DNA of 37,245 nt from the IMG/VR virus record IMGVR_UViG_3300048586_000913, positions 1-37,245 of that record. One strand, written 5' to 3'. Each line of letters begins with the position of its first letter. Positions within the stretch are counted from its first letter, which is position 1. The notes under the pieces are model-generated. The model ran no database searches, was not told the DNA's origin, and was given only the letters and a program-made list of their open reading frames with translations. The stretch comes from a virus. Made by a program: the position numbers and the translations under genes. This document shows positions 8,310 through 11,891 of the stretch, piece by piece.

Positions 8310-8522
8310 ATGGAAAACGTGAAAGCCCTGCTCAACACCAGCGTGGCCGATGCCAAAAGCACAATGGAGTGCCACCTGCAGAGCAATCCGCAACAGGCGC
8401 TGGCCGATGCGCAACTGGCCATCGACTTCATCAACCAGTACGGCAACGTCGAGGGCCAGAAATCCCGTCTGGCCATGCTGGCCGCCATCGTCAACAAGGC
8501 GCGCAAGCGCCTGACCAAGTAA
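8310..8522 (+). CDS. Small helical early protein, unknown
   Basis: This 70-aa all-helical protein (VADAKSTMECHLQSNPQQAL, then QLAIDFINQYG) is preceded by TGAGGT. Its stop codon (TAA 8520-8522) directly abuts the first hammerhead motif, so ribozyme cleavage at 8546 would trim its mRNA 24 nt after the stop. No family is recognised. Confidence 0.7.
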   Translation: MENVKALLNTSVADAKSTMECHLQSNPQQALADAQLAIDFINQYGNVEGQKSRLAMLAAIVNKARKRLTK

Positions 8523-8581
8523 GCGAAACGGGGGTTTGCCCCCGTCTACCCAGCGTGGTGGCTGGGTACTGATGAGCAGCC
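8520..8581 (+). repeat. 62-bp direct repeat, copy 1
   Basis: This stretch is 60/62 identical to 8942-9003. The two differences (T/C at 8535 and G/A at 8538) lie in the 4-nt loop of the first hairpin, so all stems and unpaired core bases are conserved. Both copies start TAAGC and end GCAGCC. Confidence 0.97.
8523..8577 (+). ncRNA. Type II hammerhead ribozyme, copy 1
   Basis: All conserved hammerhead elements are present in type II order. GAA (8525-8527) is followed by stem III with the A-U pair 8528-8545, C-G, and GGGGG/CCCCC closed by loop TTTG. Next is the cleavage triplet GUC (8544-8546). Stem I is the perfect 8-bp UACCCAGC/GCUGGGUA around loop GUGGUG. The catalytic CUGAUGA is at 8569-8575. 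Stem II is open to the flanks and shows only 2 sure pairs (8523-8524 with 8576-8577), the weak point of the model. Predicted cleavage is after C8546. The motif lies between two genes of the early operon. Confidence 0.85.
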
Positions 8582-8938
8582 ATGTGGAATAGAGATATGG
8601 AACATCACAAGACGAACAAAACAGAACAGCTTGCGCAGTTTCTTCTGGAGCAAGGCAAGTACATGAGCGCGTTTGATGTTGTCGAAGCTGACTTTCGATT
8701 TGATGGCGAGAGAGAGCAGCCTGCTGTCAACAAGGTTCAGTCAATGATGAGCAACTTCGCCAAGGTAAGCCGCTACGTCTATGACCGCCGCCATTGTGAT
8801 GTCAGAAGAAAAAACGGCTACCAGATCAAAATGCTGGCCATCACAGAAAGGGGTTCTCAGGCAAGCAAAGATAACGCCAGAACGTTATGCCGAAACAGCA
8901 ACCGCTTGTTGTGGCAGCAGGTTCTGTGCAGCTTTTGA
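8582..8938 (+). CDS. ORF enclosed by the two hammerheads, unknown
   Basis: This ORF is 118 aa from ATG 8582, or 113 aa from ATG 8597; neither has a strong ribosome site, and the leader is the repeat itself. The N-terminal part (TEQLAQFLLEQGKYMSAFDVVEADF, residues 14-38) and the following Arg-rich segment (YVYDRRHCDVRRKNGYQIKM) resemble a small winged-helix layout, but no family is certain. It is AT-richer than its neighbours, consistent with separate origin. It is the only gene between the ribozyme repeats, as if inserted as a cassette. Confidence 0.65.
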   Translation: MWNRDMEHHKTNKTEQLAQFLLEQGKYMSAFDVVEADFRFDGEREQPAVNKVQSMMSNFAKVSRYVYDRRHCDVRRKNGYQIKMLAITERGSQASKDNARTLCRNSNRLLWQQVLCSF

Positions 8939-8941
8939 CAA

Positions 8942-9003
8942 TAAGCGAAACGGGGGCTTACCCCCGTCTACCCAGCGTGGTGGCTGGGTACTGATGAGCA
9001 GCC
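8942..9003 (+). repeat. 62-bp direct repeat, copy 2
   Basis: This is the second copy of the repeat at 8520-8581, displaced by 422 bp. Here the stem III loop reads CTTA instead of TTTG. A perfect 14-bp palindrome (GACCGGGCCCGGTC) follows at once at 9004-9017. Confidence 0.97.
8945..8999 (+). ncRNA. Type II hammerhead ribozyme, copy 2
   Basis: The core is the same as copy 1: GAA (8947-8949), stem III with loop CTTA, GUC (8966-8968), the 8-bp stem I with loop GUGGUG, and CUGAUGA (8991-8997). Predicted cleavage is after C8968. Stem II again has only two sure pairs (8945-8946 with 8998-8999). Loop variation with unchanged stems and core argues that the RNA structure is under selection rather than being a recent chance copy. 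Together with copy 1 it would free a 422-nt RNA. Confidence 0.85.
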
Positions 9004-9039
9004 GACCGGGCCCGGTCATATCAACCCAGAGAGGAAGCT

Positions 9040-9291
9040 ATGACCCGAGAAGTGCTGAACAACCTGTTAAACCGGCTCTATGGCGAGATGACCATAGCGC
9101 TGAACTGGAAAGAGAAGTTGGTGCTGCAGCGCCGCTTCATCGCCCTGGCGCGGGGTGCCAGAAAGTACCGCGCCAACGATCTTGCCGGTGATGCCATGCG
9201 CGGCGCCGAGCAACTGCTGGCAGAGCTGAAGGCCGAGCTGGTGCTAATGGATGGCAAGGGGGCCGTATGCACGGTGAATACACGCCACTGA
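9040..9291 (+). CDS. Small early protein, unknown
   Basis: This 83-aa, mostly helical, basic protein (LNWKEKLVLQRRFIALARGARK) has an AGAGGAAG ribosome site. It follows the second hammerhead and its adjoining palindrome, so ribozyme cleavage would leave this gene at the 5' end of the downstream mRNA. No family is recognised. Confidence 0.7.
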   Translation: MTREVLNNLLNRLYGEMTIALNWKEKLVLQRRFIALARGARKYRANDLAGDAMRGAEQLLAELKAELVLMDGKGAVCTVNTRH

Positions 9292-9754: not shown

Positions 9755-10253
9755 TATCACCGAACAGCAGCTGAAAAAACTGGCAGGCATGGTTAAGGGC
9801 TTTCGCGACTATCGCCATATGAACGTGCGCGATATTGCCATCAGTCTTTCCCTGAGCGCCGCCTACATGTTTAAAGCCATGGCCGAGCTGCGCGAGCGCG
9901 ACATGATTGCGCCAAAGAGCGACATTGGTCTGGCAGACCTGAAGCGCTATCGCCAGCTCGACATGCTGATGGCCAAGCACCCCAAGACTGATGTCTCGGC
10001 TGCCGTGCGAGCCATCTATGGCGCTGACACTAGCAAGACTCGCTACAAGCTGCGTTATCTGATTAACGCATGCCGTGATGATGGGCTCGATGTGAGCAAT
10101 ATCAAGCAGCTCAGGGTAGACCCTATCAATCACGATCATGGCCGCGCCAAGCAGAGCGCCCTGCGCTTTGTCACCATGACACAGGTCGAGCCCGCCGCGC
10201 TGGCCGAGTTTATCGCTATCTGTAAGCTGAACGGGGGCCGCCATGCAGCCTGA
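9747..10253 (+). CDS. Putative HTH phage protein, unknown
   Basis: This 168-aa protein starts inside the end of the previous gene, with GAGGA in front. HMNVRDIAISLSLSAAYMFK followed by AMAELRERDMI looks like a winged helix-turn-helix at residues 20-50. The rest is helical with basic patches. It lies just upstream of gemA, where Mu-like phages often carry a regulatory protein of this kind. Its DNA-binding role is an inference. Confidence 0.7.
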   Translation: MSDITEQQLKKLAGMVKGFRDYRHMNVRDIAISLSLSAAYMFKAMAELRERDMIAPKSDIGLADLKRYRQLDMLMAKHPKTDVSAAVRAIYGADTSKTRYKLRYLINACRDDGLDVSNIKQLRVDPINHDHGRAKQSALRFVTMTQVEPAALAEFIAICKLNGGRHAA

Positions 10254-11317: not shown

Positions 11318-11358
11318 TCACTGAATTGGGCGCCAAGATCCCATGCGTTATCATACAA

Positions 11359-11387
11359 ACACCCGGCACTTGCCGGGTGTTGCTTTA
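11359..11387 (+). terminator. Rho-independent terminator-like hairpin upstream of mor
   Basis: A perfect 10-bp stem ACACCCGGCA/TGCCGGGTGT with a 2-nt loop is followed by TGCTTTAT. It ends the early/moron transcript. A possible promoter (TTGGGC 11326, 17 bp, TATCAT 11349) lies just before it, whose transcript would begin inside the stem, so that promoter is doubtful. Confidence 0.7.
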
Positions 11388-11417
11388 TCTGGCGTTTGCA
11401 CTGCACTTGGAGGCCCT

Positions 11418-11891
11418 ATGAAAGATGCGCACGACCAACAATCCGTTGACCTATTTGGCATCAGCGTTGACCTGGACGCCATCGATCCAGAAACCTACCG
11501 CATGCTGAGCGATGAAACTGCCCCGGGCTGGACCGAGCTGCTGCGCGGCATGTTCGACACCATTGATGCTGTGGTTGAAAAGCACCGCGATGACAAAATG
11601 CTGCCCTTCATCATGCTGTCTGAGTTCTGCCGCACCTTTGGCGGAGCCCCCTTCTATGTACCCAATGGTAAAACCCTGGCCACGGTATTGCGCTCAATTC
11701 AGATCTGGAATGAGTTCACCGGCAATAATGTATTCGAGCTGTCCCGCAAGTTCGGTGTCTCAACCCGCGAGATTCAATTTGTGCTGGCACGCATGCGCCG
11801 ATCTGAATTGCGAAAAGTTCAGGGGGATATGTTCGCCGGGCTGGATGATGTAGCCGATGGAAAAGGGCGGCGTCATGGAAGGGCGTATTAA
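11418..11891 (+). CDS. mor: Mor/C-type transcription activator
   Basis: This 157-aa protein belongs to the Mor/C family that activates middle or late promoters in Mu. Residues 1-60 form an acidic helical dimerisation part. The C-terminal HTH includes GNNVFELSRKFGVSTREIQF followed by VLARMRR. TTGGAGG precedes the ATG. Only one Mor/C-type gene is present, so it probably does the job that Mor and C share in Mu. It sits between two terminators, immediately upstream of its likely target promoter at 11960-12011. Confidence 0.9.
   Translation: MKDAHDQQSVDLFGISVDLDAIDPETYRMLSDETAPGWTELLRGMFDTIDAVVEKHRDDKMLPFIMLSEFCRTFGGAPFYVPNGKTLATVLRSIQIWNEFTGNNVFELSRKFGVSTREIQFVLARMRRSELRKVQGDMFAGLDDVADGKGRRHGRAY

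Follow-up and report, generated by a model that had tools for sequence, protein, structure and literature searches.

Type II hammerhead ribozymes as probable intercistronic joints around an exchangeable gene in the early operon of a Mu-like phage

The role of hammerhead ribozymes in phages and bacteria has been in question since 2011, and as late as 2023 the reason for their association with Mu-like phage genes was still termed unknown (PMC10085705). The locus described here – part of a 37,245-base IMG/VR virus record, which was analysed as a whole and is referred to below as the window – poses the question in a compact form: what do two nearly identical ribozymes do on either side of a single small gene? 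The answer that we consider likely is that the two type II hammerheads serve as intercistronic joints of a Mu-like phage early operon, which excise the mRNA of the intervening gene (ORF2) and turn that gene into a plug-in unit. This reading builds on the sequence and its structure class, on covariation and synteny, on gene swaps whose junctions coincide with ribozyme edges and on stop-codon adjacency, and it predicts cleavage in the window phage, protection of the RNA ends, independent expression of ORF2 and recombination inside the ribozyme.

A repeat search recovered two direct repeats of 62 nt each, 97% identical and with a spacing of 422, exactly where the first-pass annotation of this DNA had placed them (Table 1). 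That annotation regarded the repeats as type II hammerheads and proposed a check with Rfam covariance models. When cmscan (Rfam 15) was run on the whole window, Hammerhead_II (RF02276, gathering score 37 bits) matched over its full model length at 8521-8585 and 8943-9007, each time with 71.2 bits (E ~4e-13). The identification is thus upheld by these scores, as well as by the covariation and synteny described below; a chance match is ruled out by the scores and by covariation among relatives. The hammerhead core is complete in both copies (C3-U-G-A-U-G-A9, G12-A-A14, A15.1-U16.1, C17 and the 10.1/11.1 G-C pair), and their order is that of type II, with loops closing stems I and III and with stem II open. 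The annotation was also right about the finer structure: stem III consists of 7 bp and a loop, TTTG or CTTA, and stem I of 8 bp and the loop GUGGUG, the copies differ at two positions only, both in loop III, and the predicted cleavage positions, C8546 and C8968, are rightly placed on the core. Plain folding yields both hairpins, with stem III by itself at -13.5 kcal/mol.

Table 1. Features of the two-ribozyme locus, in window coordinates.
Feature	Position	Strand	Remarks
Upstream early gene	8310..8522	+	70 aa, PHROG 18491; TAA stop adjoins ribozyme 1
Ribozyme repeat copy 1, type II hammerhead	8520..8581	+	Contains the TAA stop; predicted cleavage after C8546
Ribozyme 1 stem III	8528..8545	+	7 bp, loop UUUG
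Ribozyme 1 stem I	8547..8568	+	8 bp, loop GUGGUG
Ribozyme 1 3' tail GCCA	8579..8582	+	Pairable with loop I 8556-8559; published type II consensus (PMC3088659)
ORF2, between the ribozymes	8597..8938	+	113 aa, counted from the start codon shared with L124/L153
Ribozyme repeat copy 2, type II hammerhead	8942..9003	+	Predicted cleavage after C8968
Ribozyme 2 3' tail GCCG	9001..9004	+	Pairable with loop I 8978-8981, two U-G pairs
14-nt perfect palindrome GACCGGGCCCGGTC	9004..9017	+	Immediately 3' of ribozyme 2
Downstream early gene	9040..9291	+	83 aa, syntenic in relatives

Stem II, which the annotation had called the weak part of the structure, does consist of two pairs only (G8523-C8577 and C8524-G8576), but this is no flaw: stems as short as this are common in type II hammerheads (PMC3088659), and both pairs are identical in 34 of 34 aligned ribozymes from relatives. 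The type II fold is stabilised by a pseudoknot in which loop I pairs with the 3' tail (PMC3088659), an element that was overlooked at first and that can, judging by the available pairing, make up for the two-pair stem. In copy 1, UGGU (8556-8559) is pairable with GCCA (8579-8582), and in copy 2 UGGU is pairable with GCCG through two U-G pairs; the four pairs are standard pairs in all 34 ribozymes, one of them being changed on both sides. Across diverse phages, loop I matches its own tail better than it matches swapped tails (z ~7, a value inflated by relatedness).

The same 34 distinct ribozymes – drawn from gemA relatives and other genomes of the genus Aeromonas, and not independent samples – allowed covariation to be scored over the whole structure, of which 99.6% of cells pair. 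Doubly changed cells number 41, compared with 13.1 in shuffles (sd 3.2), and when the structure is slid along the alignment it collapses, with at most 3 such cells remaining. Five of the eight stem I pairs have changed on both sides, and the catalytic core is invariant. Stem III pairs were counted outward from the junction, since MAFFT was unable to align its long and short types, and the parser misreads a few mismatch-containing stems. Covariation, the invariant stem II and the pseudoknot pairing together indicate that RNA structure has been kept, and not sequence alone.

The surroundings are those of a Mu-like early region, in agreement with the first-pass annotation: a repressor on the minus strand, transposase A and B (the transposase and the DNA transposition protein), gemA at 10243 and a late activator at 11343, beyond which follow the head and contractile-tail genes (terminase, portal, major head protein, tail sheath and tape measure). 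The only strong terminator-like site on the plus strand lies downstream of gemA, at 11358-11381, where 10 pairs are followed by GCUUUAUCUG; this hairpin, which is also a sub-threshold match to the Rfam rnk leader, is probably the terminator of the early operon. As it falls inside the 5' end of the listed late-activator ORF (11343-11891), the activator start is likely to lie further downstream. ORF2 itself has no Pfam match, and its NCBIfam matches are all below cut-off; weak relatives, with 28-38% identity, occur only in one Aeromonas phage and two Aeromonas plasmids, and a structure model built from two sequences reached a mean pLDDT of 40. The palindrome GACCGGGCCCGGTC is found after ribozyme 2 and not after ribozyme 1; it is kept in most relatives that have the downstream gene (it is absent from L003, L164 and L168) and might bind a protein or form a small hairpin in the RNA. 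The host of the phages at this locus is probably Aeromonas, which is culturable.

Relatives were collected with gemA and the downstream gene as anchors, which yielded 26 and 12 viral loci, respectively, plus five bacterial-genome loci, including an Aeromonas tecta prophage closely related to the window phage. Rfam places a type II hammerhead above cut-off in 21 of the 28 gemA relatives searched, mostly Mu-like phages; the seven without one include a Photorhabdus genome and five of the six most distant viral relatives. In every one of the 12 loci retrieved with the downstream gene, a ribozyme lies ~35-110 nt upstream of that gene, and in Shewanella phage MuM16-1 a single ribozyme stands ahead of gemA. 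Three layouts recur at the homologous locus. The upstream gene, a ribozyme and the downstream gene may simply follow one another (L152, L156 and L157); an extra gene may precede the ribozyme, with no first ribozyme before it (L143, L148, L149, L151, L155, L158-L161 and L163); or a gene may be enclosed by two ribozymes, as in the window, L153/L124, L150 and L167. Single-ribozyme phages are commoner than double ones at this locus, and a ribozyme at every junction is evidently not required, since so many relatives (L143, L148 and others) have the extra gene without the first ribozyme. Ten unrelated gene families directly precede the ribozyme among the 21 loci read in detail.

The window and L150 are 97% identical over the 150 nt upstream of ribozyme 1 and 95% identical over the 150 nt downstream of ribozyme 2, and their ribozymes are 96-98% identical; between the ribozymes identity is 52% and the genes are unrelated. 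Identity breaks off where ribozyme 1 has its 3' edge (GCAGCCA) and restarts where ribozyme 2 has its 5' edge (TAAGCGAAAC). L153 shares ORF2 with the window (~90% identity) and has a different upstream gene and a different stem III in ribozyme 1. The lone ribozyme of L156, for its part, resembles ribozyme 1 of L153 in its 5' part and ribozyme 2 of L153 in its 3' part: L156 tracks L153 through all of ribozyme 1 and then runs on like L153 after ribozyme 2, as would be expected if a unit of ORF2 plus ribozyme had been inserted at a ribozyme.

In a comparison of 20 relatives, ribozyme zones cover 2.1% of the sequence and receive 16.8% of the BLAST match ends, an 8-fold enrichment, although match ends would gather likewise at any island of conservation within variable sequence. 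The left ends are most frequent at the TAA and immediately past stem III, the right ends immediately past GCAGCC. In the array records L127-L130, some match ends lie at ribozyme edges and many elsewhere, which weakly supports exchange. The ribozymes appear, then, to stay in place while the intervening gene is replaced wholesale, which hints at why phages keep them; we infer that the genes were swapped by recombination within the ribozyme sequence, with the proviso that the original crossovers may lie outside it, in the flanking genes.

A second regularity concerns where ribozymes sit. Of 178 distinct ribozymes parsed from a diverse set of phages and prophages, a collection to which the structural parser may have admitted some false positives, 134 (75%) have a same-strand ORF whose stop codon falls between -10 and +3 nt of the ribozyme; 12.7 (~7%) would be expected at random positions, and the antisense control gave 16. 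With the gemA-anchored loci and the Aeromonas genome hits left out, the figure is 108 of 151. The next start codon mostly lies 10-35 nt past CUGAUGAG, so that the order stop codon, ribozyme, ribosome-binding site, start codon recurs in unrelated phages. In cases where a gene terminates with TGA a few bases short of the ribozyme, GCGAAAC is often still directly preceded by another stop, TAA (in L148 and L163, and in the window at 8936-8944, TGACAATAA), as though the TAA were part of the ribozyme unit and not of the gene.

Ribozymes at such positions may also be numerous. At least two hammerheads occur in 21 of the 42 positive records among the 50 searched, a share that is not a survey estimate, the sample having come mostly from a motif pattern search; these Rfam counts, like the 21 of 28 relatives above, are independent of the structural parser. 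The extreme case is a 57-kb virus (G040) with 24 Rfam hammerhead matches within 7.6 kb on the minus strand (G040:C1:9932-17520). Nearly all ribozymes of this region (L125, G040:C1:7500-20500) separate single small ORFs, which are mutually unrelated save for one 21-residue match and most of whose stops adjoin the next ribozyme; a search with one array protein returned the G040 record alone. In L127 (962-1098, reverse-complement; G013:C1:5049-5185, minus strand), two hammerheads follow each other at a distance of 3 nt without an intervening gene, which may be a joint whose gene has been lost.

How might the window's pair work? In the polycistronic early RNA, each ribozyme would fold just past the stop codon of the preceding gene and cut itself after C8546 or C8968, which would free ORF2 as an mRNA of its own, of ~422 nt. 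The upstream product of each cut would end in the stem III hairpin with a 2',3'-cyclic phosphate, and the downstream product would start with the stem I hairpin and a 5'-OH. Because both hairpins of the type II form are closed, the products would begin and end in hairpins that possibly shield both ends and may slow decay from either; a stem II of two pairs would let the cleavage products separate. The gene between the ribozymes would then be a plug-in unit, which relatives change while retaining the ribozymes. Processing of the polycistronic early mRNA, the role that the first-pass annotation had inferred, has also been proposed in print for such clusters (PMC3088659).

Other explanations have to account for the same observations. 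The repeats might be kept mainly as islands of DNA homology that let genes be swapped by homologous recombination, with RNA cleavage incidental. Their length of 62 nt and near-identity would suit this, as would gene swaps and insertions bounded by ribozyme edges and the fact that the copies within a two-ribozyme phage share the stem I pair next to the closing one, be it U-A, A-U or G-C. However, DNA homology needs neither compensatory changes in stem I nor an invariant catalytic core; nor does it call for a ribozyme that adjoins the stop codon of a sense-strand ORF, and stem III may differ wholly between ribozymes (CGGGGG versus CCATGCC), as expected for an RNA structure. We therefore think it unlikely that homology is the main reason for their retention. 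Active ribozymes could, alternatively, serve mainly to excise an RNA that circularises, through RtcB or the reverse reaction, and so stabilise the ORF2 message, and two ribozymes in the same orientation 422 nt apart do have the geometry for a unit-length RNA with ligatable ends. Yet spliced or circular products of such clusters were sought by Perreault et al. and none was found (PMC3088659), and, given that phages with a single ribozyme outnumber double ones at the homologous locus, the ribozymes cannot in general be there to excise what lies between two copies; we rate this explanation as distinctly improbable.

The chances are slimmer again that the ribozymes are neutral relics or selfish passengers that travelled with phage modules and do little. 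A second ribozyme that is optional in relatives, and a literature that still calls the biological reason for the association unknown (PMC10085705), would be compatible with this, but passengers would hardly be expected to retain core and pairing across diverged relatives, to occupy a fixed place after stop codons in unrelated phages or to form arrays in which as many as 24 copies keep the core. As for terminator or attenuator hairpins in place of ribozymes, G+C-rich hairpins in an intergenic gap might bring them to mind, but they would leave the full hammerhead core unexplained, and a terminator is ruled out, as neither repeat has a U-run or a terminator-like plus-strand site; this idea, already largely refuted, has next to no probability left.

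If mRNA processing at intercistronic joints is the preferred reading for the window, a broader one can be put forward more tentatively, and with rather less than even confidence: that stop codon, type II hammerhead and ribosome-binding site form a portable joint, in which self-cleavage insulates, the ribozyme acts as a crossover zone and the genes are interchangeable. Were this true, a gene could be inserted, lost or swapped at a joint without disturbing its neighbours; arrays such as the 24 ribozymes of G040 would be ribozyme-bounded arrays of gene cassettes; and the association of self-cleaving ribozymes with Mu-like phages and variable small genes would find an explanation. Integron cassettes are small promoterless ORFs, each followed by a structured element, that are exchangeable as units and occur in arrays. 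The ribozyme-gene units resemble them in layout only and are not members of that class; to our knowledge, no integrase or attC-type site is known for them.

Much of this has precedents. The arrangement itself, ribozymes flanking a single phage gene, had already been published (PMC3088659), as had the clustering around prophage genes, the idea that mRNA is processed there and the enrichment in the vicinity of Mu-like phage genes (PMC3088659; PMC10085705). Clustered hammerheads flanking single prophage genes were reported, with mRNA processing proposed, by Perreault et al. (2011, PMC3088659), who found that comparable tandem sets from three bacteria cleave in vitro and that a set from Agrobacterium tumefaciens cleaves in E. 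coli. In the literature searched, which covers the field in part, we found no report of the swapped-gene pattern with junctions at ribozyme edges, of a measured stop-codon adjacency or of the 24-copy array.

With the published Hammerhead_II class (RF02276; Perreault 2011, PMC3088659) the window copies share order, core, closed stems I and III, short stem II and the loop I/3'-tail pseudoknot; nothing essential differs, and they are typical members. Like the A. tumefaciens triple around ardA (PMC3088659), where several ribozymes flank one small gene of a phage operon and single-gene mRNA processing was proposed, as it is here, the window has two hammerheads around one gene in a phage operon. In the window's close relatives, unlike the clustered prophage hammerheads described before (PMC3088659), the gene is seen swapped between conserved ribozymes. 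The locus makes the question of function testable: it comes with natural near-isogenic sets (one ribozyme, two ribozymes, the same ribozymes with a different gene), and in what is probably a culturable host these would allow mRNA processing, gene exchange or both to be told apart directly. Finally, to the enrichment of hammerhead and twister ribozymes both close to genes of Mu-like phages and in each other's vicinity (Roth 2014 and Weinberg 2015, as cited in PMC10085705), the window adds a worked locus with synteny across ~20 relatives.
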